From Flavobacteriales bacterium (GTDB taxonomy: Bacteria > Bacteroidota > Bacteroidia > Flavobacteriales_D > Sanyastnellaceae), in the NCBI GenBank assembly GCA_022447625.1, contig JAKVAX010000002.1, positions 124,001 through 188,000 on the forward strand: a stretch of 64,000 bases of DNA, given 5' to 3'. The notes below the pieces were generated by a model. It did no database searches and had not been told where the DNA came from. It was given only the letters and a program-made list of their open reading frames with translations. A program made the position numbers and the translations under genes. Shown one piece after another: positions 13,353-58,039 of the stretch (positions within the stretch are counted from its first letter, which is position 1; each line of letters begins with the position of its first letter).

Positions 13353-16300
13353 ATGCGTTTGTTAATCACACTTTTGGCGATGTTTTCGCTGTCGCTCAAC
13401 GCACAGCAGGAGATCAATCTGAACACCTATATAACGCAAGGCGTTGATGACGCTGTGGTGATCAATGAGGTAGACTCTGATAGTCCTGGTACTGATGTGT
13501 TAGAATTCATTGAACTGTATGGTCCAGCCAGCTTTCCTCTCGATGGATATGTGGTGGTGCTCTATAACGGATCGAGCGATCAGAGCTACGGAAGCTTTGA
13601 CCTTGATGGCATGTCTTTAGACGAAAACGGATTCTTCGTTTTGGGTTCTGCTGCAGTACCGAACGTTGACATGATCATCAACGACAACACGCTTCAGAAT
13701 GGTCCGGATGCGATTGCCCTGTACCAAGCGAATGGCGACGACTTCCCAACGAATACCGCCATTACCTTCGACAATCTGATTGATGCTGTGGTTTATGAAA
13801 CCAACGATTCAGATGACGAGGGATTGCTCGCGTTATTGAATGAAGGTGAAGGTCAGGCGAATGAGTCAGCGAACTCAAACTCGGGTGGTGATGCGGTAGC
13901 CCGAATTCCTGATGGTGGAGCGCCTTTCACTACAAGCACCTACGTAGCTCAGGAGCCGACTCCGGGTTTCACCAATGAATTGCAATGTGATGGAGGAAGC
14001 ATCGGATTCGAAGGAATTGAGGAGTCGACAACAGAAATCTGTGTTGATCAAGAACCTTCTATTCTTGAGTTTAACTTCATGAACACCACGCCTGATGCAG
14101 ATTACTTCTTTGTTTTGGCAGATGAGAATGACAACATCATTTCTATCCTCCCAGGAAACAGCTTTGATTTCCTTGGCCAATCAGAAGGTGTGAGTCACGT
14201 GTGGGGCCTTTCAGCTATGGGAGCTCTTGATGAAGAAACAACAGGAGCAGGCTCACCCGTTGAAGGACTGGACGCAGCCATGTGTGCTGTTCTTTCAACG
14301 AACTTCTTAACGATTAACAAAGTGAACTGCATTCCGCCAAACTGTGATGGAGGAACCATTTTCGTGAACGGCGCAACAGAAGGAGTGGCGATTTGTGTGA
14401 ATGGGTTCGAAACGGTTGTTCAGATCAGTCAGATTACTGACACTGAAGAGCAAGAGTACTTGTATGCACTAACAGATTTCTTCGGAGAGATTATTGAGGT
14501 ATTTGATTTTAACGAGTATGATTTCGGAGGTTTTGATCCAGCGGTCTGCCTTATTTACGGAGTGGCTTACACAGGAATCCTGGATACAGAATCGATTCAA
14601 CCCGGGGAGCCCGTTGGACAGATTTCTTCTGATGACTGTGTTTCGATTTCTGAAAACGCGATTGAGATCAACAAGGTGTTGTGCTCGGAAGATATTGGTT
14701 GTTCGGACCTGTTCTTCTCAGAATACATTGAAGGAAACTCACAGAACAAGGCTCTTGAGATTTACAACCCAACACCCTTTACGATTGATTTGAGTGCGTA
14801 CTCAGTATCAACCTACAATGACGGTTCGATTGTGGCGGTGAACACGTTGAATATGTCAGGAATGCTCGAGCCAGGAGAGGTGTACGTTATTGGAAATTCC
14901 AATGCGAACCCACAGATCACTGCTGAATCAGACATCTTCAATAATGTGACTTTTTTCAACGGAAACGACGCCATCGTGCTTCGCAACAATGGTGTAGAAA
15001 TTGATATCATCGGAATTGTCGGAGAAAATCCGGGAAAAGCGACGCCGTGGGAAGTAGACGGAGGAGCAGGAAGCCTTGGTGAGCACACAATCGTTCGCTA
15101 CCCAACGGTTACAGAAGGACAGACGGATTGGGACATCGCTCAAGATGAATGGCAAGCCTACCCGCAAGACACCTTTGGGTTCTTGGGTGATCACACCGTG
15201 GTTCCTTGTAACTACCCGGAAGTACCAACGCTAGGGTTCAGTACGGCGAACATCAACGTGGTCGAAGGAAATTCAGTGACGGTTACCGTGAATATCGCGT
15301 TCCCAATTGCCGAAACAGATGTTCAGGTGGTTTACGCCGGAGGTTCAGCAACAGAAGAGGTAGACTTCGAAAACGAGATGCCGGTTGATATGACCTTCCC
15401 AGAAGGTGAGTTCGAAAGCATGAGCTTTACTTTCAACACGATTGACGACCTAGAATTGGAAGGTGCTGAAGACATCGTTATTGAACTTCAAGAGGTTAGT
15501 GAAGCAGAGTTTTTGATTTCCTCATTGATTGTAACGATCCTCCCTTCTGACGACATCATTCCAGTGTACGAAATTTCAGGGGTTTCAGGAAATAATGAAA
15601 CATTGTCTGCGGATTCTCTTGGCGTTGTTTGTGAACTTCGAGGCGTCTCACATGGCCTGAACACCAATCCTGACGGTGTTCAATTCACTTTGATCGATGA
15701 TACAGATGGAATCAACGTTTACCACCCTGAAAACAATTTCTTATATGAAGTAGCAGAAGGAGATAGTCTACACATTATTGGAACCATCGATCAATTTAGC
15801 GGGTTAACACAGATTGTTCCTGACACAATTATTCTCATCGAAAGCGGCTTGGATTTATACGAACCGCAACTCGTAGATGAGCTCAATGAAACGACAGAGT
15901 CTAACATGATCCAGCTGAAATGCATGGAGATTGTAGATCCTTCTGAATGGACGAATAGCGAACCAGGATTTAGTGTAACTGTAACAGACGGTAGTGACGA
16001 GTTCGAACTTCGCATTGATGCAGATACAGATATCTTCGGCACTGATGTACCAGAAGGAGTGTTCTCTATCTTCGGCATCGGCGGTCAGTTTGATTCAAGC
16101 GAACCATTTGATGATGGTTACCAGATCTTGCCACGTTACTTGGCAGACCTGAGCACACCAGTATTCGCTTCATTTGACGCTCCAGCAACAGCTGAGGTAG
16201 GAGAGGAGATCTCATTTGCAAACATGAGCGAAGGGGCCGCGAACTATCTGTGGGATTTCGGTGACGACACAACGACCCAAGAAGAGGGGCCGAGCCACAC

Positions 16301-16652
16301 TTATACGGTTCCGGGAACCTACACTATAACTTTGACCGCATTCGATAGTGAAGGTATTTGTCAAGACCAATTCACTTTTGTGATTGAAGTAGGGATTGAT
16401 AGTATAGATGAACTTGACGCGCTTGAATTGATCGCTTACCCGAATCCAACGAACGGACAAATGACGGTGAAAGCGAATACGGGTATTGACGTGATCTGTG
16501 TTTTTGACGCAACAGGACGCGTAGTTGTGCAAGAGGCGGGAGCAGGCAATATGCTTGTGAACCTTGACCTGAGCCAACTAGCCCAAGGAAGCTACACGAT
16601 GGAGGTAAATGCGGTTGAACTCAGATCAGTTATGCACATCATGGTGAAGTAA
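13353..16652 (+). CDS. Lamin-tail / Calx-beta / PKD multidomain protein with T9SS type-A sorting domain
   Basis: A 1099-residue exported protein with signal peptide MRLLITLLAMFSLSLNAQ. The visible order is: a lamin-tail (LTD) domain near 33-165 (VVINEVDSDSPGTDVLEFIE), a middle region with Cys-bearing repeats near 210-440, and a second LTD domain near 448-570 (FFSEYIEGNSQNKALEIYNP). A Calx-beta domain follows near 620-730, an OB-like segment near 735-890, a PKD domain near 940-1015 (YLWDFGDDTT), and a type-A sorting domain (LELIAYPNPTNGQMTV) at the end. LTD domains in bacterial surface proteins often accompany nucleases or adhesins, but no nuclease domain is visible here. An adhesive or matrix role is inferred. 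Confidence 0.85.
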   Translation: MRLLITLLAMFSLSLNAQQEINLNTYITQGVDDAVVINEVDSDSPGTDVLEFIELYGPASFPLDGYVVVLYNGSSDQSYGSFDLDGMSLDENGFFVLGSAAVPNVDMIINDNTLQNGPDAIALYQANGDDFPTNTAITFDNLIDAVVYETNDSDDEGLLALLNEGEGQANESANSNSGGDAVARIPDGGAPFTTSTYVAQEPTPGFTNELQCDGGSIGFEGIEESTTEICVDQEPSILEFNFMNTTPDADYFFVLADENDNIISILPGNSFDFLGQSEGVSHVWGLSAMGALDEETTGAGSPVEGLDAAMCAVLSTNFLTINKVNCIPPNCDGGTIFVNGATEGVAICVNGFETVVQISQITDTEEQEYLYALTDFFGEIIEVFDFNEYDFGGFDPAVCLIYGVAYTGILDTESIQPGEPVGQISSDDCVSISENAIEINKVLCSEDIGCSDLFFSEYIEGNSQNKALEIYNPTPFTIDLSAYSVSTYNDGSIVAVNTLNMSGMLEPGEVYVIGNSNANPQITAESDIFNNVTFFNGNDAIVLRNNGVEIDIIGIVGENPGKATPWEVDGGAGSLGEHTIVRYPTVTEGQTDWDIAQDEWQAYPQDTFGFLGDHTVVPCNYPEVPTLGFSTANINVVEGNSVTVTVNIAFPIAETDVQVVYAGGSATEEVDFENEMPVDMTFPEGEFESMSFTFNTIDDLELEGAEDIVIELQEVSEAEFLISSLIVTILPSDDIIPVYEISGVSGNNETLSADSLGVVCELRGVSHGLNTNPDGVQFTLIDDTDGINVYHPENNFLYEVAEGDSLHIIGTIDQFSGLTQIVPDTIILIESGLDLYEPQLVDELNETTESNMIQLKCMEIVDPSEWTNSEPGFSVTVTDGSDEFELRIDADTDIFGTDVPEGVFSIFGIGGQFDSSEPFDDGYQILPRYLADLSTPVFASFDAPATAEVGEEISFANMSEGAANYLWDFGDDTTTQEEGPSHTYTVPGTYTITLTAFDSEGICQDQFTFVIEVGIDSIDELDALELIAYPNPTNGQMTVKANTGIDVICVFDATGRVVVQEAGAGNMLVNLDLSQLAQGSYTMEVNAVELRSVMHIMVK

Positions 16653-22559: not shown

Positions 22560-22660
22560 TATACACACAAGCGTGTGAAAAATAAGAGAGCGGCCCCGTG
22601 GAGGGCCCTGTGCTAGTTGTACCTTTATTTTTTGACGTACAGCACGCGAAAAGCTGTGTT

Positions 22661-23644
22661 ATGACCAGATTTACAACAATACTCATCCTGTGTCTTGTGA
22701 GTGGTTTTCAAGCCCTCACCCAAGACTGTGGATCGCCTACGCTACTTTGCGCAGAAACCTCAAACCCGGATTCGCTGACGAATGCGGCACCTGTTGCTTT
22801 CAGCTGCATGGATGCCCTCTACACGAACTACTACAGTTTCTCTACAAACACCAACGCCAACAACACAGGCAATGTTACCCTTTCAGTGAGCGGCATTGAT
22901 TGTATGACCAGCGGAGGCAACGATACGATCCAAGCGATCATTGTAGAGGTTCCTGCAGGAGGCGACCCGTGTCAACCTATAAGCTACGTTCAGGTTTCTG
23001 ACTGTTTATCTGACACGCTTGACTTTTCTTTAGAAAGTGATGACCTCTCGGCGAACACCGATTACATCGTGATTCTCGGAACGAACCATGACCCAGCGAA
23101 TGGGCCATGTGACTTCAATGTCAGCATTGACGGTCCAGCCGTGGATATCAATGCATGTTGTGATCAAGAGATTTCGCTGGGGCAGAGCGCAACCATTAAT
23201 GCCAGCGGTGCAGAGGCCATTCCGGGATACTCTTGGAGCCCGGCATTGACGCTTGACACTGCCATTGGTAACGAAGTCGTAGCGATTCCAAATGAAACAA
23301 CGGAGTACACCTTAACTGGTTTTGTTGGTGACTGCGAGGTGACAGACATTGTGACCATCATCGTGGGCCCACCCGTCGGAATCCCGAATACCATCACACC
23401 AAACGGCGATGAAATCAACGATCGATGGAAGATTAGTGGAATCTCTGATTTCCCGAATGCCCAAATCACCGTATTTGATCGTTGGGGCCAGGTGGTGTTC
23501 AAAGACATTGGATACGCTGAACCTTGGGATGGAACAAATCGAGGAAAAAAACTTCCAACGGCGACGTACTACTACGTAATTGAGCTGAATTCGACAGACA
23601 TTCAAATTGATCCGATTACTGGCGCAATAACACTGGTGCACTAA
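22661..23644 (+). CDS. Secreted protein with T9SS type-B (CHU_C) sorting domain
   Basis: A 327-residue exported protein. The signal peptide MTRFTTILILCLVSGFQALTQ sets the start at 22661; a longer reading from 22598 would put residues before the signal and is rejected. A Cys-rich beta domain occupies about 22-180, an Ig-like segment about 180-240, and the C-terminal gliding-motility-associated domain about 245-327 (TITPNGDEINDRWKISGI, FDRWGQVVF, WDGTNRGKKLPTATYYYVI). The stop overlaps the ATG of the next gene, a PorP/SprF-family protein, by one base (TAATG). Known SprB/SprF pairs suggest the neighbour helps secrete or anchor this protein. Confidence 0.85.
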   Translation: MTRFTTILILCLVSGFQALTQDCGSPTLLCAETSNPDSLTNAAPVAFSCMDALYTNYYSFSTNTNANNTGNVTLSVSGIDCMTSGGNDTIQAIIVEVPAGGDPCQPISYVQVSDCLSDTLDFSLESDDLSANTDYIVILGTNHDPANGPCDFNVSIDGPAVDINACCDQEISLGQSATINASGAEAIPGYSWSPALTLDTAIGNEVVAIPNETTEYTLTGFVGDCEVTDIVTIIVGPPVGIPNTITPNGDEINDRWKISGISDFPNAQITVFDRWGQVVFKDIGYAEPWDGTNRGKKLPTATYYYVIELNSTDIQIDPITGAITLVH

Positions 23645-24573
23645 TGAAGAAGATTCTGCTCATCAGCATAATAGCGCTAGCAGGCCTCTCAATGAAGGGT
23701 CAGCAAATGCCGTTGTATTCGCACTACGTCTTGAATTACCTTCAGATCAACCCGGCTGTTGCAGGTTCACAACCATGTCTCGACATGAAGATTGGATATC
23801 GCAGACAATGGATGGGGATTGGCGAAGGTCCACGAACTGCTTTTGGCAACATTCACGGGTCTTTCGGAAAGAAGAAACACAACTTCCACGGAGTGGGCGG
23901 ACAGGTGTTCACAGATGATACTGGTGCGATTGGCTTCACTGGAATGAACGGAGTGTACGCGTATCATATGAAAATGAACCGCAAGTATTACCTCAGCGCA
24001 GGTATTGGGGTTGGTTTCATGCAATACAGAATTGACCTTGGAGGAATTGTATTACCTGACGTTCAGGTGGTGAATGACCCGGCATTTGCAGGTTCATCCA
24101 GTGAGTTCTTATTCCCGCAGATTCAATTTGGCCTTTGGTTGTACAAAGAAGATCGTTTCTATGGATTTGCCATTCACAACTTGACAGAGAACGCCCTTTC
24201 GATTCTACCAGGATCTGCAATGAGAAGACACTATTCTTTTGCTGCAGGTAGAGCGATTGAGATGCAAGATGGGTTTATGTTTAAGCCATCTGCTCACTTG
24301 CAATACGTGGCTTCTTCGCGAGCGTCGATTGACCTCACAGCAATGTTTGATTACAAAGAAAAGGTGCAAGTAGGAGTTGGTTTCCGCAGTGAAAGTGGGA
24401 TTACCGGACTTCTCCGTGTAGACCTTTTCCGATATGTAACCCTTGGCTATGCGTATGACTTCGCATTGTCGAGAATTAGATTTGACGGGCGTCACACGCA
24501 TGAAGTAGTGCTTGGAATTCAGGCGTGTGCAGGAAATGAAGGCAGAGCGGTGCCTTGTGCGGCTTATCAATAA
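23644..24573 (+). CDS. PorP/SprF family type IX secretion outer-membrane protein (first copy)
   Basis: A 309-residue outer-membrane beta-barrel of the PorP/SprF family, with signal peptide MKKILLISIIALAGLSMKGQ. The early block MPLYSHYVLNYLQINPAVAGS and the RQWMGIGEGPRT segment are hallmarks of the family, as is the final strand pattern with TLGYAYDFALS near the C-terminus. SprF is needed for secretion of the SprB adhesin in Flavobacterium johnsoniae, and PorP belongs to the P. gingivalis type IX system. Here the copy follows a CHU_C cargo gene with a one-base overlap and precedes the giant SprB-repeat gene by 66 bases, so it could serve either. Confidence 0.9.
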   Translation: MKKILLISIIALAGLSMKGQQMPLYSHYVLNYLQINPAVAGSQPCLDMKIGYRRQWMGIGEGPRTAFGNIHGSFGKKKHNFHGVGGQVFTDDTGAIGFTGMNGVYAYHMKMNRKYYLSAGIGVGFMQYRIDLGGIVLPDVQVVNDPAFAGSSSEFLFPQIQFGLWLYKEDRFYGFAIHNLTENALSILPGSAMRRHYSFAAGRAIEMQDGFMFKPSAHLQYVASSRASIDLTAMFDYKEKVQVGVGFRSESGITGLLRVDLFRYVTLGYAYDFALSRIRFDGRHTHEVVLGIQACAGNEGRAVPCAAYQ

Positions 24574-36804: not shown

Positions 36805-39800
36805 TTATCTGCTGATGTTTACGGTACCGTTGTGCTCTTTTCCATTTGGAAGGATGATAACGTACCAGTAAGTTCCTTCAGCTACATCACGTCCGTCCCA
36901 GTCACCTGAGCGATAATCTTGGCTTTCGTAAACTGAAGTTCCCCAGCGGTTGTAGACGTATACTTGAACGTCGTTGTACACATCGAGACCTTCGATGTGG
37001 AAACGCTCATTGATCGCATCACCGTTTGGAGTGAAGATGTTCGGAATAGTAATCTCACAGGCATCGATCACTACTTCGAAGTTCCCCTGTGTAGAACCAC
37101 AAGGGTTGATTGAAGTACCTGTCAACGTTTGAACGACTCCCCAACACTCAGTACCGAGGTCAGAAGCGTTCAGTGTGAGATCATCTGCGTTGTCTTCGAA
37201 GTAAATGACGTCTCCGTCACAGTTGATTTCCCATACCCATTGTGTTGGTCCACCAGTAGAGTTCAACTGGAATACGTTGTTGATCTCAGGACAAAGCGTC
37301 AATGGCGTTGTTGGGAATGGATCTACGTTAGGAGCAGACCCAATGAATACTTCTGTACAGATGGTTTCTGTAGCACAGTTTCCTGGATCTGTAACATCAA
37401 TACATACTTCTTGGTTTGAAGTCACTTCGTACTGGATTCCGTTGGATCCGTCAGGCCAAATAACATCCCAATCAAGGTTAGGAACGTTTGCAGCCATGAT
37501 GTATGGGCCATCTGAATCACAGAATGCGTAGTAAGGTTGTGGAAGAACAGTATCAAGCTCTCCGGCAATTGAAACTTCTGCACAAGCGCTCGTTCCAACA
37601 GGGTCACATTCGTTGCTTACCGTTACACAGTAAGTTCCTGTTTCTCCCGCTTCAAATGTTTCACCGTTACCTACCGCAGCACCTTCGAATGTCCACTCAT
37701 AGATGAGTGAAGGGTCATCATTGGCAATTGGGTCAAGAATCACCGTTCCACCATCACATAGCACTTGGTCTTCAAGCACGGGTGCTGAAGGAAGGCTTGT
37801 AGCGATGATGTCAAAGGTATCAGAGTCTTCACCACAACCATTTTCGATGGTTACAGTGAACGTCTCATTCGTTGCTTGGTCGAAGCTGTATGTGTTCGTT
37901 AGGGCGTCATCAACTCCTGGGCTCGGCCAATCGATTTCGGCAGTACCACCAAGGTCATATACATCGGCATTTACAACTGCCTCTTCATCTCCACAAAGCA
38001 CGAATGCATCTGGAGAAAGCTCGATTGTTGGAGCTTCTGTGAATTCAAGTTCATACTGGTAGAAGATTCCACAGTCAGCTTCTTCGAAGTTAAATACGTG
38101 CAGGCCGTATCCATCAGGAGTGAAGAACGTGTCAAATTGATCTTCATTCGAGAAACTACCTCCAGGACCGTCAACGTAGGTCCACACACCCAATGCAGGG
38201 TCCGCAGTACAACCAACTTCACCTTCAAAGAGGATTTGCCCGTTTGTGAAAGGAGGCTCGGGGTCTTCTTGGTTGTTCGTAGAACAGTTGAAGAAAAGTA
38301 CGTCGTTAAATTCATCTCCTGTGCCTGCACTGATGTATTCGATTTCGATGTAGTCACCAGCTTCGATCTCTACCTGCTCAATCAAGAAAGTAGAAAAGGA
38401 AGTGAAGGTACCTACAAGCTCTTCGTTTACGTAAACGTTAATGAAAGAACCTTCCCAACCTTCGTTGTTCGACGACTGTAAGTAGATGTTGAAGAATCCT
38501 TCTGCTGGGTTACTGAAACCTCCTGAGAATTCTACATCTTCCAATCCATCACAGTACGCTCCAGACCAAGTGTCTTCTGGGATAAATGGATCTACGCTCA
38601 ACACGTTGAATACGTATTGACCTTGACACCCTTGCACGTCAGTTACTAGCAGTCGGTAAGTTCCTGGAGTTAATTCAGCGCTAAAGCCGTTATCAGAAAC
38701 CGAGACTACTTCACCACCTAAACCATTCCAGTCACCTTCCCACGAAACATTAGTGTAAAGATCCCATTCTTCTTCACAGACCGTAGCAGTAGCTACTTCG
38801 TCAGAACATACAGGGTTAGGTAATACTGTCACACAAGGCAGGAAGTATGGCGTCTGATCAATGACAATCGACGTTTCAGCAGTACAGCCTTCGTCGATTC
38901 CTGCAGTTACGATAACCTGACCACCTGTTGTCACATCACAAGTTGGTGTTGTACATCCTGATGACCAATCGTAGAAGTCGAATCCACCGCTAGCTTCAAG
39001 TGTAGTCGCTGATCCTGCACAGATAGTGAAGTCACCTGATACTGTAAGCTCTGGAAGCACTACGTCGATTACCTCAACTACAATGTTCAATTCAGTTACT
39101 CCCGCAGGGTCACCTGAGTCAGTTGCTGTAATGTTGATGGTGTTGAATCCGATGTTGTCCACACTTCCTACGTATCCACCGTCGAATGTTGCGGTGTTTC
39201 CGTTGAGGACGTTGTTGATATACAAGCCATCTTCGAATCCGTCTACATCGTATTCAATTGTTACCTGCTGGTTGTTCTCTGGAGCCAAGAATTGGAAGTC
39301 AAGAACAAGGGTGTCTTGAAGACAGAGCGTGATGGTGTCACATCCAACGTTGGCTGTAGAGATAGGAGGAATATTGTTCTGTTGAACTCCAATCGTGTTG
39401 AAGCTGAACGATTTGTTGTTCAACCAGTAAACACCGTCAATTTCATTGTTTCCATCTCCATATGGGCCGTTGTAATCATCGCTACAGATTCCGAAACGTC
39501 CGTACTGGATGTTTGGACCAGAAGTAGCTGACTTATCTGCACCATTTGTTGCAGGCGTTGGTCCTTGGCAACCGCCAGACCCGCCTACGTCACCGTGAGA
39601 CCATCCCATGTTGAGGTAACATAGCTGAACGTTTGACCCTTCAGCAAGAACGGGGCTGTCTTCAGGAGTGAAGATCATTTGGAATGTATTCGTTTTGTCG
39701 TCGTGATTGTTGAAGTAACCGACGTCAATGAAGTTCACGTAAACCGCTTCTTCAGTGATTTTGTACCAGATCTCACCAATCGCACGGATATCAATATCCG

Positions 39801-40359
39801 CCCAGAAACCGGCAATCTGATCATAGGTCGCGTCAGGGAATTCTTCTGGTGTCCAGTCGATGATACCCGCACCGAAAGAAACAGAACCTTTCGAGTTGAT
39901 GTAGAATGAGTTAAAGTTCTCACCGTAGTGGTCGTGGCTCCATCCTGGAAGAGCGAGTGGCCCGATCCAAGCATCTACGTCTGCACCTGCACCACCTGTT
40001 TCATCCCAGTCGTCAGTTTCGATTTGAGTGTAAGTATCATCTGGTTCAATCCAGCATTCACACCCCCCTGCAGCGAGGAGGCGAGCAGCACGACGGGCAG
40101 CACGTGCATCTTCGTCAACTACTTTACGCTCTTTCACGATGCGGCGAGCATCTGCTTCTGAGTAGTGTTCCCATTCACGGATCACACTCCACTCTGCACG
40201 TGTCATATTGATGACAGCGCCTTCAAACCCATTGTATTTCGCAATGATTTGTTGGGCGGTCAGGGTGGTTTCGGAACCATCCATGTTGTTGATCTCCTGA
40301 GAGAAAGCGACGCTTCCAGAGAGGAGGAAAGCGATCAAAATTAGAATCGATTGTTTCAT
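36805..40359 (-). CDS. Large surface protein with nidogen-like domain and T9SS type-B (CHU_C) domain
   Basis: An exported protein of about 1184 residues. The signal peptide MKQSILILIAFLLSGSVAFSQ favours the ATG at 40359 over one four codons earlier. A nidogen-like region with a WTPEEFPDATYDQIAGFWAD block lies near 140-330, followed by cadherin-like and Ig-like segments and a CUB-like segment near 585-675. The C-terminus is a gliding-motility-associated domain (NIFTPNGDAINERFHIEGLD, VYNRWGTSVYES). It has 30 or so Cys, fitting an extracellular protein. It is flanked by an upstream candidate promoter and a strong terminator, so it is transcribed alone, directly downstream of the sigma/anti-sigma pair. 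The ligand is unknown. Confidence 0.85.
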   Translation of the reverse strand: MKQSILILIAFLLSGSVAFSQEINNMDGSETTLTAQQIIAKYNGFEGAVINMTRAEWSVIREWEHYSEADARRIVKERKVVDEDARAARRAARLLAAGGCECWIEPDDTYTQIETDDWDETGGAGADVDAWIGPLALPGWSHDHYGENFNSFYINSKGSVSFGAGIIDWTPEEFPDATYDQIAGFWADIDIRAIGEIWYKITEEAVYVNFIDVGYFNNHDDKTNTFQMIFTPEDSPVLAEGSNVQLCYLNMGWSHGDVGGSGGCQGPTPATNGADKSATSGPNIQYGRFGICSDDYNGPYGDGNNEIDGVYWLNNKSFSFNTIGVQQNNIPPISTANVGCDTITLCLQDTLVLDFQFLAPENNQQVTIEYDVDGFEDGLYINNVLNGNTATFDGGYVGSVDNIGFNTINITATDSGDPAGVTELNIVVEVIDVVLPELTVSGDFTICAGSATTLEASGGFDFYDWSSGCTTPTCDVTTGGQVIVTAGIDEGCTAETSIVIDQTPYFLPCVTVLPNPVCSDEVATATVCEEEWDLYTNVSWEGDWNGLGGEVVSVSDNGFSAELTPGTYRLLVTDVQGCQGQYVFNVLSVDPFIPEDTWSGAYCDGLEDVEFSGGFSNPAEGFFNIYLQSSNNEGWEGSFINVYVNEELVGTFTSFSTFLIEQVEIEAGDYIEIEYISAGTGDEFNDVLFFNCSTNNQEDPEPPFTNGQILFEGEVGCTADPALGVWTYVDGPGGSFSNEDQFDTFFTPDGYGLHVFNFEEADCGIFYQYELEFTEAPTIELSPDAFVLCGDEEAVVNADVYDLGGTAEIDWPSPGVDDALTNTYSFDQATNETFTVTIENGCGEDSDTFDIIATSLPSAPVLEDQVLCDGGTVILDPIANDDPSLIYEWTFEGAAVGNGETFEAGETGTYCVTVSNECDPVGTSACAEVSIAGELDTVLPQPYYAFCDSDGPYIMAANVPNLDWDVIWPDGSNGIQYEVTSNQEVCIDVTDPGNCATETICTEVFIGSAPNVDPFPTTPLTLCPEINNVFQLNSTGGPTQWVWEINCDGDVIYFEDNADDLTLNASDLGTECWGVVQTLTGTSINPCGSTQGNFEVVIDACEITIPNIFTPNGDAINERFHIEGLDVYNDVQVYVYNRWGTSVYESQDYRSGDWDGRDVAEGTYWYVIILPNGKEHNGTVNISR

Positions 40360-40405
40360 TTTACCACGCATCTTATCTAGTCTGAACTAAATTAGTTCTG
40401 TTTGT

Positions 40406-40453: not shown

Positions 40454-41566
40454 CTAACGACGGAGCTTCACAATGCGTCGTTCGTTGAATACTTTACCTG
40501 CGTCCGAGTAAGCTACCACGGTGAGAATGTAAGCCCCTTCAGGACATTGATTCCCTGCTTGGTCGTTTCCATCCCATCCTGAGCCTATTCCAGACTCCTC
40601 AAATACTACTTTACCATTGGAATCGTAAACCACCATTTGTTGTACGGTGACCTTGCGAGATTCCGGGTGTATACCGAGAATATCATTGACTCCGTCGTTA
40701 TTTGGAGTAAAGACATTCGCTAGTACCAATTTCGCAGGAAGATCGACAGTGATGTGTTGTTCTTCCGTCTTATCAAACCCAGCAGCATCAACTACTTGGA
40801 GAATGACCGTGTAGTCATCTTCAAATTCGTAGGTGTGTTGTGGACTGCGTTCTGTTGACATTTCTCCGTCGCCGAAGAACCAGATGTATTGTACCCCATT
40901 TCGGAATGCCGGTTCGAAGTGGCGCGTGAGCGTTTCGCGATCGTAAACAGAAACCGTGAATTCAGCACTAAGGTTGGCATCGGGTTGCGCCTCTTCTTCA
41001 ATTGTTTCCGATTCCGCGCTAGCGTTAGAATTAGCCGAAGCCTCATCAGCGCCTTGTTCATCAGCTACCACAGGGGTTTCGGACTCTTCTTCGGTCTCTT
41101 GATCTGATGAGTAGATGGTTTCAACCGTAATGGTGTCAACCACGGGGTCATCAGTGTTCGTGATCATTTTTGATTCTCTTGAAGGGTTCTCTTCAGAGCG
41201 ATCATCAACAGTTGTAGTTTCCTCACTTACATCACGGTGGGTATCCTCGGAAGGTTGCTCAGCTGCGGAATTCGTTTTAACGACAACCTGTTCTTCTTGA
41301 GTAGGGGTAGAGGCCGCAGTGTCATCACCACTGAAGAAAACTCCGAGTGCAATCGCACCTCCAACAACAACCGTGGCGATCACACCAGCTGCAGCGCTGA
41401 ATCCTCCAGAAGTACCCGCAGCGCCACCACCGGCACTACCACTGGCAGCACCACCTGGTGTCGGCAATTGCTGCTGCAATTGCGACCAGATATTTGGATC
41501 TACCGGTGCCTCGGCCCCGGATAGCTTCTGCTGAAGCAGATCTCTTATGTGCTGATCTTCTGTCAT
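40454..41566 (-). CDS. Membrane-anchored anti-sigma-like protein with PKD and CHU_C domains
   Basis: A 370-residue protein encoded directly after an ECF sigma factor, whose stop it overlaps by four bases. Residues 1-35 form a short helical cytoplasmic segment with the DPNIWSQLQQQL step typical of proteins placed after ECF sigma genes in Bacteroidota. A Gly/Ala-rich stretch precedes one membrane helix near 57-78. The outside part has an acidic Ser/Thr/Glu-rich spacer (about 85-190), a PKD domain (about 195-275, YIWFFGDGEMSTERSPQHTY) and a C-terminal CHU_C domain (VFTPNNDGVNDILGIHP). It has no cleavable signal peptide, so the C-terminal domain would remain tethered in the inner membrane. An anti-sigma role is inferred from position and topology. 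Confidence 0.75.
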   Translation of the reverse strand: MTEDQHIRDLLQQKLSGAEAPVDPNIWSQLQQQLPTPGGAASGSAGGGAAGTSGGFSAAAGVIATVVVGGAIALGVFFSGDDTAASTPTQEEQVVVKTNSAAEQPSEDTHRDVSEETTTVDDRSEENPSRESKMITNTDDPVVDTITVETIYSSDQETEEESETPVVADEQGADEASANSNASAESETIEEEAQPDANLSAEFTVSVYDRETLTRHFEPAFRNGVQYIWFFGDGEMSTERSPQHTYEFEDDYTVILQVVDAAGFDKTEEQHITVDLPAKLVLANVFTPNNDGVNDILGIHPESRKVTVQQMVVYDSNGKVVFEESGIGSGWDGNDQAGNQCPEGAYILTVVAYSDAGKVFNERRIVKLRR

Positions 41567-42099
41567 TGTCCTTGTTCTAGTGCGTTCAGTTGATTGCGCA
41601 ACTGAATCTTGGCTTTGTGAAATTGGGTCTTTGAAGTGCTTTCAGAGATTTCGAGCTTCTCAGCGATCTCCTTATGGCTGTATCCTTCGATGGCGTATAA
41701 ATTGAAGACTGTGCGATATCCCGTGGGCAGTTGAGCGATCAAAGCCAAAATATCTTTGGCGGCCAGCTCACTCAACACGTTGAAGTCAGTTATGTGAAGA
41801 TCATAAGCGTCATCAATTGACTCTTGGAAGGCGTGGCGTTTTTCTTTTCGGATGTGAATGAGGGCCGAATTAACCATCACTCGTCGAATCCAAGCGCCTA
41901 AAGCACCATCCCCTTTATATTGACCCAATTTTTCAAAGACCTTAATGAATCCCTCTTGCATCATGTCTGCTGCATCATTGGGGTTCCCTGCATAGCGCAG
42001 ACAAACCGCCATCATTTGACCGGAGAACTGGTCATAGAGCTCTTTTTGTGCCGAGCGCTCCTTTGCTAGGCATGCATCTACAAGTTCTCTTTCCGTCAT
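41563..42099 (-). CDS. ECF-type RNA polymerase sigma factor
   Basis: A sigma-70 family factor of about 178 residues. Region 2 is near residues 10-80 (DQFSGQMMAVCLRYAGN, ADMMQEGFIKVF, GAWIRRVMVNSALIHIRK) and region 4 near 115-170 (LPTGYRTVFNLYAIEGYSHKEIAEKL, TSKTQFHKAK). The ATG at 42099 (MTERELVDAC) is chosen over a TTG reading 12 codons earlier, which adds a His-rich tail foreign to the family. The next gene overlaps its stop and encodes a membrane protein with PKD and CHU_C domains that probably controls it. Possible targets include the surface-protein gene at 36805, but no shared promoter motif could be proven. Confidence 0.9.
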   Translation of the reverse strand: MTERELVDACLAKERSAQKELYDQFSGQMMAVCLRYAGNPNDAADMMQEGFIKVFEKLGQYKGDGALGAWIRRVMVNSALIHIRKEKRHAFQESIDDAYDLHITDFNVLSELAAKDILALIAQLPTGYRTVFNLYAIEGYSHKEIAEKLEISESTSKTQFHKAKIQLRNQLNALEQGQ

Positions 42100-42224
42100 G
42101 GCGTTCGCGGTGATATGATGCTGGTGAGATTTCAAAAGTTGCCTGAAAGATGACTTTTCATTGAATTTTTACGCTTTTCTCAGAACCTTCGACACAGAGT
42201 GCTCGTTATTTCAGTGGTTAACGC

Positions 42225-45628: not shown

Positions 45629-46366
45629 TCAGCGGTGTACAGACCACAGGAGCTCCAGTTTTCGCCGCAACTCCTCGCTCCTTCGCACCGCTAACTTGAT
45701 GTTTTCGCCGTTTTGCATGGTGCAGAGTTTCAATGAGTAATTGCATGATTTGACCCCGCGGAGATTTATAATAAAACTGTTGTGTACTCGAAAGAACCCC
45801 TCGCTCCCCAGAAGCGCCTGAAGCTGTTTGAGGTTTTTGGAGACCATTAGTCGCTCCCCTGATTTTAAGCGAATGTTGCTGTAGCTCCCACATGCTTCAA
45901 TGGTCATGATATCACTGTGTTTCACATAGCGCACTTTTCCCTTGGCGAAGACTTCGAGCTTTTGAAAATGCTGTTCTGGTAAGATCTCATGTTGGGATTG
46001 AATCCGATGGGTGAGTTTCCCTAAGCAGGTATTCAGTTCATCAGGGTCTAGTGGTTTGAGTAGATAACCGGAGGCCTGCCTTTTGATCGCCTCGATGGCG
46101 TAATCGGTGACGTTGCTGTGAAAAATGGTGTAGAATGACCGATCAACAAAGCGATCGATTAATTCGATTCCGCTTTGATAGGGCATCCGGATGTCGAGAA
46201 AGACCAGGTCAGGGTCTGTTTTACGGATAACATCATAGCCTTCTTTTCCATTGCAGGCTTCGGCGACCACATTGATCTGAGGGTGATGCTGAGAGAGCTG
46301 TCGCCGTAGTAACTCACGGGCATACGGATCATCGTCGACGATGACCGTGTCGATCAACCTTTCCAT
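45629..46366 (-). CDS. LytTR-family response regulator
   Basis: A 245-residue two-domain regulator. The receiver domain (about 5-120) has the acidic pocket DDD at 11-13, the phosphoacceptor Asp58 in VFLDIRMP, and the LLKPLD lysine near 103. The LytTR DNA-binding domain (about 138-242) is recognised by VRYVKHSDIMTIEACGSYSNI and FFRVHNSFIINL. Regulators of this type are usually phosphorylated by membrane histidine kinases encoded next to them; here none is adjacent, so it is an orphan in this window. It is divergent from the outer-membrane barrel gene at 46572, with 205 bases between. Confidence 0.9.
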   Translation of the reverse strand: MERLIDTVIVDDDPYARELLRRQLSQHHPQINVVAEACNGKEGYDVIRKTDPDLVFLDIRMPYQSGIELIDRFVDRSFYTIFHSNVTDYAIEAIKRQASGYLLKPLDPDELNTCLGKLTHRIQSQHEILPEQHFQKLEVFAKGKVRYVKHSDIMTIEACGSYSNIRLKSGERLMVSKNLKQLQALLGSEGFFRVHNSFIINLRGVKSCNYSLKLCTMQNGENIKLAVRRSEELRRKLELLWSVHR

Positions 46367-52387: not shown

Positions 52388-55300
52388 TTAACGGAGGAGA
52401 GTCACGTGCCCTGTGTAGATCTCGCGTTGTCCGATTTCACGTGATGCGATCTCGATACGCCAAGGATACACTCCATCTGGAACAAAATACTCACCCCCTT
52501 GACGGTTCCCGATCCATCCTGCTGAAGGGTCTTCCGTTTCGAATACGACGTCTCCCCATCGGTCAAAGATGAAGAACTTGTATTCATCAATGACGGTGCC
52601 CGAAATCACCGGGTGGAAGACCTCGTTGATTCCATCACTATCAGGAGTGAATGCGTTCGGTAAGTAGACAATCAGCGTAGGATCTACCGTGATGGTCACG
52701 GTAAGGGAGTCTGTACAACCATACCCATTGGTAGTCAATAACGTCAAGTTGTATTCACCAGCACCCGGGAAGGTGTGTTCGAAATCAGGGCTCGTGTAGA
52801 ATCCACCATCACTGGTAGTGTAATTCCACTCAGTTGCGCCTTCACTTTGATCGGTAACGATAATGATAGGCGTACTTGTGTCTGGTTCGTCTGGAGTATA
52901 GTTGAAGTCAGCAGTAGGAGCTGGCCAGATTTCAAGAAGTCCTGGTTCAGTAATGCTGTTTACACATCCTTGGTCAGAGATCACAACAAGTGAAATGTCA
53001 TATTCACCAGGCTCATCTGTAGCGAACACAGCTTCTTGTCCGTTCGCGAATGACTCTCCGTTCACTAACCATTCCCAGTTGATGATGTCTCCACCGCTGA
53101 TTGTACTCAAGTCTTCTAACTCAACACTTGCGTTTGCACAAGCTTCGATGCCACTGCTTCCGAAGGCAGCCAGTGGATTCGGGTGAATGGTCAAGGTCAT
53201 GGTAGTATCTACGACACAACCAGAAGAGCTTCCCATTTCAAGTGTGATGACATAATCACCCGCGTTGTCATAGGTCTGTATGAGGCTTTGATCAGTAATG
53301 ATCGGATCACCTAATCCGTTATTCCAAGCGTAGTAATCGATGGTTGTTACTGGGATAGAAGAAGTGTTTGTGAATGTCACTTCTGAGCCTTCACATGCAT
53401 TGTCAAACTGAACGTTGATTACTGGGAGTGGATTGACGAATACATCTTGTGTAAACACGTCGCTACATCCAGCATCGGTTTCAACGTAGAGCTCAATTTC
53501 ATAGGTACCCCAAGATGCGGGATCGTATCCCACAGGGTCTTGCTGATTACTGTGCGGCACACCATTCACTGTCCAATCCCACAAAATGATCTCTTGAGCA
53601 TCTGAAGAAGATTGGTTGTCAAGCACGATGTTATCATCCGCACAAATGTCAGCTAGGTTGACGTCAGCAACAGGAGTTGCGTAGACAATCAGGGAGTCTG
53701 TGTAAGAGGCAGAACAACCTTGATCGGAAACTACAGTTAGGCTGATATCAATCACACCTGGGCCGTCAACAGTAATGTCTGGCGTGCTTGTTCCTGTGAT
53801 TTGCCCGTTCTGTTCAATATCCCAGATGAATTCATCAATTGTACCCTCTTCAATGGTTGAGGTGCTTTGTACGTTGATGCTCTCCAACCAGCAGATTGAA
53901 GGCGGGTCAAATGAGGCTTGAGGCTGTGCGTTAATGGTGAGATCTGCGAAACCATCTTCCACACATCCATTGGCGTCTGTGTAGGTGTATTCCACTTCGT
54001 AATCTCCAATTCCCGGATAAGCTGCGGGGTCAAATTCGGTAACTTCAACACCATCGATGTAGTATGTTCCGCCCGCTGGGGCACCACCTGAAACACCGAC
54101 TGCAACTTCTGCCTCACACATTGGGTCTGGAGTGTCAAGTGTCACCACCGGAAGTGGGTTGATGAAGACATCGGCCGTATCTGTGTTCACACACTGGTTG
54201 CCGTCGGTATAAGTGTAGATCACTTCGTAAGATGCGTTATCTGGCATCGAAGGGTCAAAGTCTGTTGATTCCGTTCCGTTTACTGTGTAGACCCCAGTGC
54301 TGCCTGCTGGGAGTCCGCCATCAAGAGGGAACGATGGTTCGTTATAGCAAACCTCTTCAACTATGTCCAGCACTACCTGAGGAAGCTGGTTGATTACAAG
54401 ATCTACTGTGTTCTCGTATTGACAATCTTCGAAGAAACCGGTTACAATGATTTCTGTGCTCACTGGAGCAGTCAACCAATATTCGTCGCCACCAATCGGA
54501 GTGAACAGCTCTGGCTGATCAATCGTGTAGCTATCAGCACCAGTGAATTCAATCATGGTGCTATCACCGAAACAGATGGGGTCAATCGCAGAGACATCAA
54601 AGGTGAATTCTTCCACCACAATTTCTTGCTCACATTCAATGAGGAATGGGCAACCATTCGCATCTTCCATTACCAGTGACGGACAGTAAGTACCCGGGCC
54701 TAGGTAAGTGTGGCTCGTTGACGTGTTGTTATCCGGATCACCAAACCCATCACCGAATTCCCAGAAGTAAGTAAAGCTCTGATCGTTCGTGTTGTAGGCG
54801 TCGAACGATACTTGGAACGGAGCACAGCTCACAGGGTCAAGCGTCACTTCGTACGGGCCAATCACATTCGATAGGTTGAAGATATCTTCAACCATGGTGG
54901 TGTCGTAACAGCCGTACTGGTTTGATACGACTAATTCCACATCGAATACTCCAATCGGATAGGTGTGGAATGGTGCGTTCCCAGAACCAACTTGGTTGTC
55001 ACCGAAGTCCCATTGGCTCGTTTGCACCACGCCAGTGGTTGTGTTTTCAAACTGCACTCCGAAAAGACAGTTGTTGTTGTCGCTTGTAAATGTGAAGTCA
55101 GCAACCGGAGAAACAATGTTCACTACGTTTGCTTGACATTGTGTTTGTTGACATCCTTGCGAGTTTTCGGCGGTCAAACACACATCGTAAGAACCGTTCT
55201 GAAGGTATACGTGCTGTGGGTTTTCTTCTGTACTTGTATTGTTCGGGTCACCAGGGTTTCCAAAGTCCCATGAGTAACCAATGATGTCTCCCACGGAGCT

Positions 55301-58039
55301 ATTGGTCAATGAGATCGTATCTCCAATGCATGAAGGATCAACAGTAATGGTGAAGTCAGGAATTGGAGGTGGAACAAGGTCAACCACTTGCGTTACTTCT
55401 GATCCACAGCCGAAGTCATCTGTTGCTGTGAACGTCGCGCCGAAGGTAGTGTCCCAAGGAGCGAAGAACTGGTGTACAGGATTTAAATCACTCGAATTCG
55501 TTCCATCAGTGAATTCCCAAGAATAGGTGTCAAGGAAGTTTCCGGTTGGTTCGAAGCTGATCAGTACACTGTCACACCCCTCCACGATAGTGGTGTTGAA
55601 ATCAGCAAAGATGAGATCATTGAATACGTTGACCATATCGTCGTACACGGTTGTGTAGCTGCATCCGCTGACATCAGTGCCTGTGATCGTGACGTCGTAC
55701 AATCCGCCAATGTTGTATTCTACATCAGGGAAGAAGTTCACCGTGAACGAGTAGTTCGCATAATCAACACCGTCTGGAGTTGTGGTGTACACATCCCAGA
55801 TATTATTCGCATTGAGGGTGGCTTCCATGGTCACTCCGTTGCCGAAATCGACAAAGAAGCTCTGGTAGATCGCATAATCAGAAGTGGTGAAATTCGGCAC
55901 TAGCGGAGCACATCCAGCGGCGTTGGTCGCACTAAGGTTGATAGGGTCCGTGGCGGTGATTACCGCTTGAGTGCGATCATCGTAACAGCCAGTATCATCG
56001 TTGAACACCACGAGTTCAACAACGTATGTTCCTGGCCCAGGGTAAGTGTGCGTAGGGTTAGTGTCGTTGTACACCAATGGAGATCCGTCACCGAAATCCC
56101 AAATCAGCGAGTCTGCCTCAATGGATTCATCAAAGAATGTCACGGTATTCAAATCAGCGCAATCCTGCGTGAAGCTGAATTCAGCAATCGGAGGCGGAAT
56201 ATAGATGTAGTCTTCTAGAAGAAGCAAGGCGTTACAAGCCAGGTTGTAGACGCTCAACGTCACATCAAAGTATCCCGTATCAGCGTAATCGTGAACGATA
56301 CATGAGTCAGGGAAGCTCGCTGTTTGCCATCCGGTGTTGTCACCAAAGTTCCATGAGTAAGCCGTATTCTCTACCATGTCGGTACAGAAAGTGATTGGCT
56401 CTCCGGCACATGAAATAGGGTTGTCTGCAGTAAATTCAGAAACTACATTAGGCTGAACGAGAATGGTTTGGTCAGCAGCGATCGTGCTTGTACAACCACT
56501 GACAGTTGTGAGGAATACTTCAATCGTGTATTCACCTGGATCTGCGTATGCGTAGACTGGAGCATCTCCAGAAGCATCTGGCACACCGTCGTTATCAAAG
56601 TCCCAAAGGGTTTCAATAACAGCCTCTACACTTTCAATTTCGATGTTGGCAAGGATCACCGGTTCACCCGTACAAATCACATCAGGATTTTCGAACGAAA
56701 TAGTTGGCGGCTCTACTACGATGTAGTCAACAACAATCATCGTGTCAGAACAGCTAGAAGTATTTACAACCAGCCCAATATCATAGCTTCCGAACGTGTC
56801 GAAAGTATAGTTCAAGTCGTCATCGGTTGATACCGAAACACCATCAATCAACCATTCGTAACCGATGAGGTTTTGACCAGCGCTGTTGTTGGTGATGTTC
56901 ACTTCATGTGGTGCTACACAAGATTCGGCGTCATCCGCAGTGAAGTCAATGTTGATTGGGTTGAGCACCTCAATGCCCATCGAACCGTCAGTTGATCCAA
57001 TACAGTTATCAGAGTAAACTGTGGTAAGCACCGGGTTGAACATGCCGGGTTGATCAAACACGAAGGTTGCAATAGAGTCAGTGGAGTCTTCAATGCCATC
57101 TCCGTCAAAATCCCATGACCATCCAGATGGTGCTGGGTTACTCGTATCAGTGAAAATCACGGTACCACCGGCGCACAAGAGGTTTTCTGAGATGTCGAAC
57201 GAAGGTGTAGGTGCTTGTACGATTTCAATGGTTTCGCAAGCCGTAACCACACAACCGATGGCATCTTCTACGGTTAGACAAACGTCGTATGAACCCACGT
57301 TGTCAAAGGTGTGAGAGATGTTTGTAACATCAACAGTGGTTTGTGTGAAGCCGTCGTTAAAATCCCATCCGCAGGTCAATCCATTTCCAGCCGATGTATT
57401 CGTCAAGTCAATAGATACTGGGGGATTACAATCGCTAAAGGTTGATGGAGTGAACTCCGCTACAGGGTAGTCATCACTCACTGAGATCATTCCGTCTACG
57501 GAGATCGAGCTGAAACAGCCGAACTCATCCTCTACTGAAAGTACAGGGGAGAACGTACCTGCTGCATCATAACAGTAGGCCGGGTTTTGTTCGTTCGAAG
57601 TGATACCGTTTCCGAAATCCCAAGACCATTCTACGATGGCTCCGTCAGTTACCACTGTAGCATCTGTATACTGAACACAATGAGGCGCACAACCCGCGTT
57701 GTCATCCACTGTTAGATCAGCTACTGGCGGCGCATGAACAATGATAAAGTCTTGAATCGTAGTGGTCTCAACACCATCGATGGTTAGGGTCACATCGTAT
57801 GAGCCTGGTGCTGAAAGAATGTCGATATACTGAGACGAAGAAGAAGTAACCGTACTGTTGTCTGGGTAAGTAATGACCCAGTTGAATGAACTAACAGTGT
57901 TAGGGTCAGGGGTATCCACAGAAATAATGACCGGTAGGGGAGAACACCCTTCAGCCTCATTAATGGAAAAAGAGACCTGCGAAGAAACTTCTAAGCACGC
58001 CGCCGCCATCAACACCAGTATAGCCAGTCGTCTGAACAT
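52388..58039 (-). CDS. Giant PKD-repeat surface protein with T9SS type-B (CHU_C) domain
   Basis: An 1883-residue exported protein. A signal peptide (MFRRLAILVLMAAACLEVSSQ) precedes about 17-18 PKD-like domains, each with a WDFGDG-like step and a later aromatic GTY/GSYDV step; good examples are SWDFGNGITSNEQNP and IWDFGDGSPLVYND. Between about residues 1240 and 1420 three Ig-like units with the repeated PAGGTY and TEFDP pattern interrupt the PKD series. The C-terminal domain (YLPNAFTPDSDGINEVFHPV, FDRWGDVVFETED) directs T9SS export. It is probably an adhesin or matrix component. No SprF-like partner is adjacent, unlike the other giant protein. Confidence 0.88.
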   Translation of the reverse strand: MFRRLAILVLMAAACLEVSSQVSFSINEAEGCSPLPVIISVDTPDPNTVSSFNWVITYPDNSTVTSSSSQYIDILSAPGSYDVTLTIDGVETTTIQDFIIVHAPPVADLTVDDNAGCAPHCVQYTDATVVTDGAIVEWSWDFGNGITSNEQNPAYCYDAAGTFSPVLSVEDEFGCFSSISVDGMISVSDDYPVAEFTPSTFSDCNPPVSIDLTNTSAGNGLTCGWDFNDGFTQTTVDVTNISHTFDNVGSYDVCLTVEDAIGCVVTACETIEIVQAPTPSFDISENLLCAGGTVIFTDTSNPAPSGWSWDFDGDGIEDSTDSIATFVFDQPGMFNPVLTTVYSDNCIGSTDGSMGIEVLNPINIDFTADDAESCVAPHEVNITNNSAGQNLIGYEWLIDGVSVSTDDDLNYTFDTFGSYDIGLVVNTSSCSDTMIVVDYIVVEPPTISFENPDVICTGEPVILANIEIESVEAVIETLWDFDNDGVPDASGDAPVYAYADPGEYTIEVFLTTVSGCTSTIAADQTILVQPNVVSEFTADNPISCAGEPITFCTDMVENTAYSWNFGDNTGWQTASFPDSCIVHDYADTGYFDVTLSVYNLACNALLLLEDYIYIPPPIAEFSFTQDCADLNTVTFFDESIEADSLIWDFGDGSPLVYNDTNPTHTYPGPGTYVVELVVFNDDTGCYDDRTQAVITATDPINLSATNAAGCAPLVPNFTTSDYAIYQSFFVDFGNGVTMEATLNANNIWDVYTTTPDGVDYANYSFTVNFFPDVEYNIGGLYDVTITGTDVSGCSYTTVYDDMVNVFNDLIFADFNTTIVEGCDSVLISFEPTGNFLDTYSWEFTDGTNSSDLNPVHQFFAPWDTTFGATFTATDDFGCGSEVTQVVDLVPPPIPDFTITVDPSCIGDTISLTNSSVGDIIGYSWDFGNPGDPNNTSTEENPQHVYLQNGSYDVCLTAENSQGCQQTQCQANVVNIVSPVADFTFTSDNNNCLFGVQFENTTTGVVQTSQWDFGDNQVGSGNAPFHTYPIGVFDVELVVSNQYGCYDTTMVEDIFNLSNVIGPYEVTLDPVSCAPFQVSFDAYNTNDQSFTYFWEFGDGFGDPDNNTSTSHTYLGPGTYCPSLVMEDANGCPFLIECEQEIVVEEFTFDVSAIDPICFGDSTMIEFTGADSYTIDQPELFTPIGGDEYWLTAPVSTEIIVTGFFEDCQYENTVDLVINQLPQVVLDIVEEVCYNEPSFPLDGGLPAGSTGVYTVNGTESTDFDPSMPDNASYEVIYTYTDGNQCVNTDTADVFINPLPVVTLDTPDPMCEAEVAVGVSGGAPAGGTYYIDGVEVTEFDPAAYPGIGDYEVEYTYTDANGCVEDGFADLTINAQPQASFDPPSICWLESINVQSTSTIEEGTIDEFIWDIEQNGQITGTSTPDITVDGPGVIDISLTVVSDQGCSASYTDSLIVYATPVADVNLADICADDNIVLDNQSSSDAQEIILWDWTVNGVPHSNQQDPVGYDPASWGTYEIELYVETDAGCSDVFTQDVFVNPLPVINVQFDNACEGSEVTFTNTSSIPVTTIDYYAWNNGLGDPIITDQSLIQTYDNAGDYVITLEMGSSSGCVVDTTMTLTIHPNPLAAFGSSGIEACANASVELEDLSTISGGDIINWEWLVNGESFANGQEAVFATDEPGEYDISLVVISDQGCVNSITEPGLLEIWPAPTADFNYTPDEPDTSTPIIIVTDQSEGATEWNYTTSDGGFYTSPDFEHTFPGAGEYNLTLLTTNGYGCTDSLTVTITVDPTLIVYLPNAFTPDSDGINEVFHPVISGTVIDEYKFFIFDRWGDVVFETEDPSAGWIGNRQGGEYFVPDGVYPWRIEIASREIGQREIYTGHVTLLR

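Follow-up and report, generated by a model that had tools for sequence, protein, structure and literature searches.

Background

In dual membrane-spanning anti-sigma factors (Dma), a sigma-binding N-terminus and a transmembrane (TM) helix are joined by a long disordered tether to a beta-barrel at the C-terminus. Their genes lie next to a gene for an extracytoplasmic function (ECF) sigma factor of the ECF21 group, in the case of Dma2 within a three-gene operon (PMC13088901). ECF sigma factors have also been connected with the type IX secretion system (T9SS). In Porphyromonas gingivalis, PorA feeds back on PorXY-SigP (PMC4800418, PMC7712824), and in Flavobacterium psychrophilum the ECF/anti-sigma pair THC0290_1774/1773 is found among the T9SS-linked SM6 promoters (PMC9723704). 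In SprB, a type B cargo of the T9SS, the C-terminal domain (CTD) is reported to have five conserved motifs, two of them located in loops (A and C) and three in strands (B, D and E), each of which is necessary for export (PMC12618676). The subject of this report is a locus in a 64,000-nucleotide stretch (the window) of contig JAKVAX010000002.1 from a Flavobacteriales bacterium, in which an ECF sigma factor gene is followed directly by a gene for a membrane-anchored protein that ends in a CHU_C domain, the domain that marks type B cargo. The evidence favors, with a probability of about 60%, a Dma-type trans-periplasmic anti-sigma factor with a CHU_C-derived outer sensor that would switch its own operon, including an adhesin-like cargo in this family.

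Results

The ECF sigma factor and its partner

The pair consists of two open reading frames (ORFs) that overlap by 4 bp; all features of the locus are on the minus strand. The first ORF extends from 41563 to 42135 when read from a TTG codon, or to 42099 when read from an ATG. A conserved candidate promoter (42117-42143) falls between the two codons, inside the longer TTG frame, so the ATG was taken as the start, the choice already made in an earlier note on this sequence (the original prediction). The resulting protein of 178 residues (41563-42099) was classed as an ECF sigma factor by its Pfam matches to sigma-70 region 2 (4e-14) and region 4_2 (7e-17), and shares 45-98% identity with 20 orthologues. 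An ECF paralogue elsewhere in the genome (L027, G000:C67:193520-194038) has an in-frame TAA, which may reflect either a broken gene or an error of assembly.

The second ORF (40454-41566) encodes a predicted anti-sigma factor of 370 residues. Its AlphaFold2 (AF2) model has N-terminal helices at residues 3-16 and 24-33, disorder from 37 to 191 (predicted local distance difference test, pLDDT, < 50) and two well-modelled immunoglobulin (Ig) domains. The two helices belong to the putative sigma-binding segment, residues 1-37 (41456-41566), which is supported by the model, by profile and by the ratio of nonsynonymous to synonymous substitutions (Ka/Ks). In an alignment of 24 proteins over their whole length, Trp27 of this segment is invariant, as are residues in the PKD and CHU_C domains. 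The sole hydrophobic segment, residues 60-78 (41333-41389), has a mean hydropathy of 2.33 and is the predicted TM helix. Over 24 orthologues its N-terminal flank has 22 Lys/Arg and 1 Asp/Glu and its C-terminal flank 28 Lys/Arg and 59 Asp/Glu, favoring an N-in orientation. A cleavable signal peptide was ruled out because the hydrophobic segment begins only near residue 60 (58-60), after a conserved soluble segment.

The TM helix is followed by a tether, residues 79-196 (40979-41332), that is acidic (30% Asp/Glu), predicted to be disordered and the least constrained part of the protein; between two congeneric genomes Ka/Ks was 0.32 in this spacer, 0 in the sigma-binding segment, 0.06 in the PKD domain and 0.05 in the CHU_C domain. 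The PKD domain, residues 197-278 (40733-40978), scored 38.9 bits with PKD_4 (cut-off 27) and matched structure 6aem (VIA Z 13.1, 80 residues, 1.4 Å). The CHU_C-like Ig domain, residues 279-370 (40457-40732), scored 51.3 bits with Pfam CHU_C (cut-off 27) and 36.9 bits with TIGR04131, the NCBIfam T9SS type B sorting domain (cut-off 35). The structural matches of the Ig domains were generic Ig/fibronectin type III (FnIII) and glycan-binding proteins. No FecR domain was found in the anti-sigma protein, and the neighbors of the pair are lepA, a CHU_C cargo gene and a radA-like gene rather than a TonB-dependent receptor gene.

Chance does not account for the layout: dozens of genomes keep it, and purifying selection on the folded parts is strong. 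The original prediction had described an ECF sigma factor paired with a protein consisting of a short cytoplasmic segment, one TM helix, an acidic spacer, a PKD and a CHU_C domain. That pair is real: every mark by which such a pair can be recognized in sequence is present, and the position of the hydrophobic segment agrees with a protein predicted to be tethered in the membrane with no cleavable signal.

A recurrent family with three kinds of outer end

A single-protein search of 60 relatives was made and the loci were read in 23 other genomes of the order. Each full-length relative in these 23 genomes lay directly behind an ECF gene, as did 23 more beside the ECF genes of named genomes, and a profile search placed a member of the pair in about half of the 60 relative genomes. 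The layout had been handled as unique; it is instead a recurrent family present in dozens of genomes. In the proposed search of Bacteroidota for ECF genes followed by TM-PKD-CHU_C proteins, no full-length relative was found without an ECF gene immediately before it. When the ECF alignment was used to scan named genomes, 80 loci were obtained, mostly in Flavobacteriales, Saprospiraceae, Cytophagales, Chitinophagaceae and Bacteroidales, and 23 of the 78 readable partners were CHU_C-ended, including a TM-PKD-CHU_C protein of 379 residues in Crocinitomix catalasitica ATCC 23190 (L155). A phylum-wide search at a strict threshold gave few relatives outside the order, a threshold that also masked divergent relatives recovered by the ECF-based scan.

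Among the partners of related ECFs that lack a CHU_C end, the long ones finish in an outer-membrane (OM) beta-barrel, PF13568 being found in 19 of 28, and the others are short proteins without an outer module. With a profile built from the first 60 residues of the CHU_C-ended proteins, 46 of these 55 non-CHU_C partners scored at least 10 bits. Its only match among approximately 820 other ORFs was a true partner in truncated form; of 1100 shuffled sequences, 1 matched. The putative sigma-binding segment is therefore homologous across the CHU_C, barrel and short classes. One barrel-ended paralogue is encoded in the same genome (L046, G000:C23); its model has two helices, a TM segment, a tether (residues 69-286) and eight long strands, and its nearest folds are OmpA-type barrels (TM-score by target, 0.72). 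The genome also contains a second operon of the same layout (L043, G000:C34, 1885-7364), consisting of genes for an ECF sigma factor, a 432-residue TM-PKD-CHU_C-like protein and a 1166-residue CHU_C protein. The 432-residue protein lacks NRWG and its CHU_C score, 24.6, is below the Pfam cut-off of 27.

In a tree of the ECF sigma factors the three classes were strongly clustered; the CHU_C state required 5 changes, compared to a mean of 35 when the labels were shuffled, and 6 compared to 34 after removal of long branches. L043 and L168/L194 were placed apart from the main CHU_C group.

The CHU_C-like end

The CHU_C-like domain retains TPNGDGxND, WDG, the Tyr and the terminal L-x-R, and has DSNG in place of NRWG. 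NRWG or a near variant was found in none of 49 tethered anti-sigma CHU_C domains and in 51 of 52 untethered cargo domains, as counted by column with all domains aligned to one profile (p = 3e-28, a value that ignores relatedness). The protein accordingly has a CHU_C domain above the cut-off, as type B cargo does, and lacks both the full CTD motif set that includes NRWG and, judging by the position of its hydrophobic segment, an N-terminal Sec signal peptide. The NRWG position would correspond to motif B of PMC12618676. The loss of NRWG together with the TM anchor makes export of the tethered domain unlikely, and the CHU_C end is probably not exported.

CHU_C is the one constant periplasmic domain of the family, the PKD domain being missing in 15 of 47 proteins. 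Nevertheless, the distance from the TM helix to the CHU_C domain was 125-224 residues in all 47, because the 15 proteins without a PKD domain carry a longer spacer (124-197 residues). By its length, this stretch could carry the CHU_C end across the periplasm.

Promoter and predicted output

More than 20 orthologues have a counterpart of the candidate ECF-type promoter, GGCAACTTT-N14-CATC, in front of their ECF gene. Its first half and its spacing hardly vary, and it is predicted to mark autoregulation. Strict matches to CAACTTT-N14-YATC were counted with the reversed pattern as control. In the same genome there were 11 matches compared to 9 for the control, the only intergenic one being the site of the operon itself, and in the 23 genomes 79 compared to 50, an excess about equal to the operon itself. 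No T9SS gene was linked to the motif in either of these scans, and scans for sigma-70-type promoters and terminators gave nothing above shuffled sequences. Since the sole intergenic strict match is the operon's own and the excess in the 23 genomes is small, the simplest predicted output is the operon itself.

Downstream cargo and T9SS context

The gene at 36805-40371 encodes a co-directional NIDO and CHU_C protein of 1188 residues in which NRWG is intact. A NIDO/CHU_C protein, about 1190 residues long where complete, was the product of the third gene in 15 of 15 same-family operons examined, and a radA-like gene followed it in most of the complete loci. Its description as a large CHU_C cargo stands, and the gene is probably the third of the operon and its product a genuine T9SS type B cargo. 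None of the 5 operons examined from other families encodes such a protein, which makes the pair the core of the arrangement and the cargo an accessory target.

The same genome encodes SprA, as do 60 of 60 relatives, so its co-occurrence with the pair neither supports nor refutes a link to the T9SS. The pair was not detected in about half of these relatives, and the T9SS therefore does not need it.

Other T9SS-related genes were noted in the window. At 22598-24573 (plus strand), the gene for a 348-residue CHU_C protein (91 bits) overlaps a PorP/SprF-like gene (PF11751, 201 bits); the gene after them encodes a repeat protein of 2538 residues whose end is CHU_C-like, and the whole is a typical cluster of type B cargo and shuttle. 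A protein of 1883 residues encoded at 52388-58039 (minus strand) carries about 11 PKD domains and ends in CHU_C. The genome has 48 places that match the anti-sigma query, nearly all by way of PKD or CHU_C. At 13353-16652 (plus strand) there is a gene for a 1099-residue protein that combines lamin tail domains and PKD with a type A tail, Por_Secre_tail; its presence beside CHU_C proteins indicates that type A and type B T9SS signals both occur in the genome. Near the operon, at 45629-46366 (minus strand), a LytTR-type response regulator of 245 residues is encoded, with no obvious histidine kinase among the listed neighbors.

Discussion

The proposed mechanism is that the short cytosolic segment would hold the sigma factor while the single TM helix anchors the anti-sigma factor in the inner membrane. 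The disordered tether would cross the periplasm and place a folded domain at the outer-membrane side. This CHU_C-like Ig domain would be derived from a type B sorting domain; because NRWG has been lost, it is read as a retained domain that may dock or sense at the OM side rather than as exported cargo. A changed contact of the CHU_C end would cause the anti-sigma factor to let go of the sigma factor, which would then transcribe from the promoter before its own gene and raise expression of the operon, which in this family includes the surface NIDO/CHU_C protein.

Several observations weigh against this interpretation. The AF2 model of the sigma-binding segment is of modest confidence (block pLDDT 52-65) and the TM helix was not confidently modelled. 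A tether of about 120 residues is able to span the periplasm, but need not do so. The sigma factor, which has sigma-70 regions 2 and 4 only, is placed among the ECFs in general; the partners of Dma belong to the ECF21 group. Repeated independent origin of the CHU_C ends was considered from the placement of L043 and L168/L194; however, a single CHU_C clade was not rejected (p-AU 0.23). The tree does not settle between one and several origins, and repeated swapping of outer ends is therefore not proved.

The original prediction was that of a mock cargo. In this reading the tethered domain would bind to the T9SS, or to a PorP/SprF shuttle, and the sigma factor would be informed of occupancy or failure. 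The domain is a recognizable CHU_C with all the conserved elements listed above except NRWG, SprA is universal among the relatives, the next gene encodes a real cargo, and there are precedents for ECF-mediated T9SS feedback in PorA/PorXY-SigP (PMC7712824) and in the SM6 pair of F. psychrophilum (PMC9723704). However, the motif missing from all 49 tethered domains is probably one of a set of which each member is needed for export of the SprB CTD (PMC12618676). Moreover, no PorP/SprF gene was found beside the pair, no regulon was found beyond the operon, no T9SS gene was linked to the promoter motif and many T9SS-positive relatives do without the pair, so that the mock cargo has become rather improbable. 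Sensing of T9SS occupancy is possible, chiefly in view of the T9SS origin of the domain and of the real cargo that the operon can encode, and no result favors it over another sensor at the OM side. About as doubtful is a related proposal, in which real type B cargo, especially the NIDO/CHU_C protein of the same operon, has to compete with the NRWG-less end, a decoy, for the translocon or for a shuttle of the PorP/SprF family; if so, an inner membrane anti-sigma factor would directly meter T9SS traffic and adjust the synthesis of that cargo. A direct functional equivalent of the Dma barrel would be obtained if the CHU_C domain were truly exported while the N-terminus was kept in the inner membrane, one chain then passing through both membranes by way of the T9SS, and the TIGR04131 score just above the cut-off would fit. 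Yet NRWG is lost. In addition, the T9SS moves substrates that have been released into the periplasm, and a chain stuck in the SprA pore would block it. This arrangement is highly improbable.

An ordinary periplasmic envelope-stress anti-sigma factor, whose generic Ig domains sense a ligand or misfolded protein with no contact to the OM or the T9SS, is an unlikely alternative. In its favor, many ligands are bound by PKD and Ig domains, the structural matches belong to the generic and glycan-binding kind, and the short relatives without an outer module share the chassis. Against it, the CHU_C domain is the only constant periplasmic domain, lies at least 125 residues from the membrane in every case and occupies the position of the OM barrel in relatives.

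These findings show that the Dma plan does not depend on a beta-barrel; a chassis of putative sigma-binding segment, TM helix and tether has no outer module in some Bacteroidota and in others ends in an OM barrel or in an Ig domain derived from the T9SS, with more than one kind in the same genome. The family is a large and testable one for studying how Bacteroidota sense the OM side of the envelope. Because NRWG is consistently missing from tethered CHU_C domains, it stands out as a candidate export determinant, and these domains are a warning that CHU_C annotation by itself overcounts T9SS cargo.

Comparison with known systems

The protein shares the CHU_C fold and most of the conserved motifs with T9SS type B cargo of the SprB type (CHU_C, TIGR04131; PMC12618676, PMC9143113). 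It differs in having a TM helix at residue 60 behind a putative sigma-binding N-terminus instead of a signal peptide, and in lacking NRWG and an adjacent PorP/SprF gene. In PorXY-SigP an ECF sigma factor is likewise tied to the T9SS and a CTD protein feeds back on it, but there a two-component system lies between the surface and the sigma factor, and PorA is no anti-sigma factor but a protein exported to the surface. THC0290_1774/1773 resembles the present pair, by description, as an ECF/anti-sigma pair in a T9SS-bearing flavobacterium.

A CHU_C-ended variant of the Dma type was not found described in the open-access literature searched, which supports novelty only weakly. The claim that the design has no described counterpart is partly right: apart from the outer domain, the plan is that of Dma (PMC13088901). 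Common to both are a sigma-binding N-terminus (predicted here), one TM helix, a long disordered tether and a C-terminal outer module, as well as an adjacent ECF gene, a three-gene operon (Dma2) and restriction to the Bacteroidota. Dma1 and Dma2 of B. thetaiotaomicron were likened to the protein by description, while homology was measured to the barrel-ended partners of related ECFs. The outer module of Dma is a beta-barrel; that of the present protein is a CHU_C-like Ig domain, often with a PKD domain, for which insertion into the OM is not expected. With three of the four Dma domains present and the barrel replaced, the anti-sigma factor is best regarded as a Dma-like variant and not as a member of Dma.
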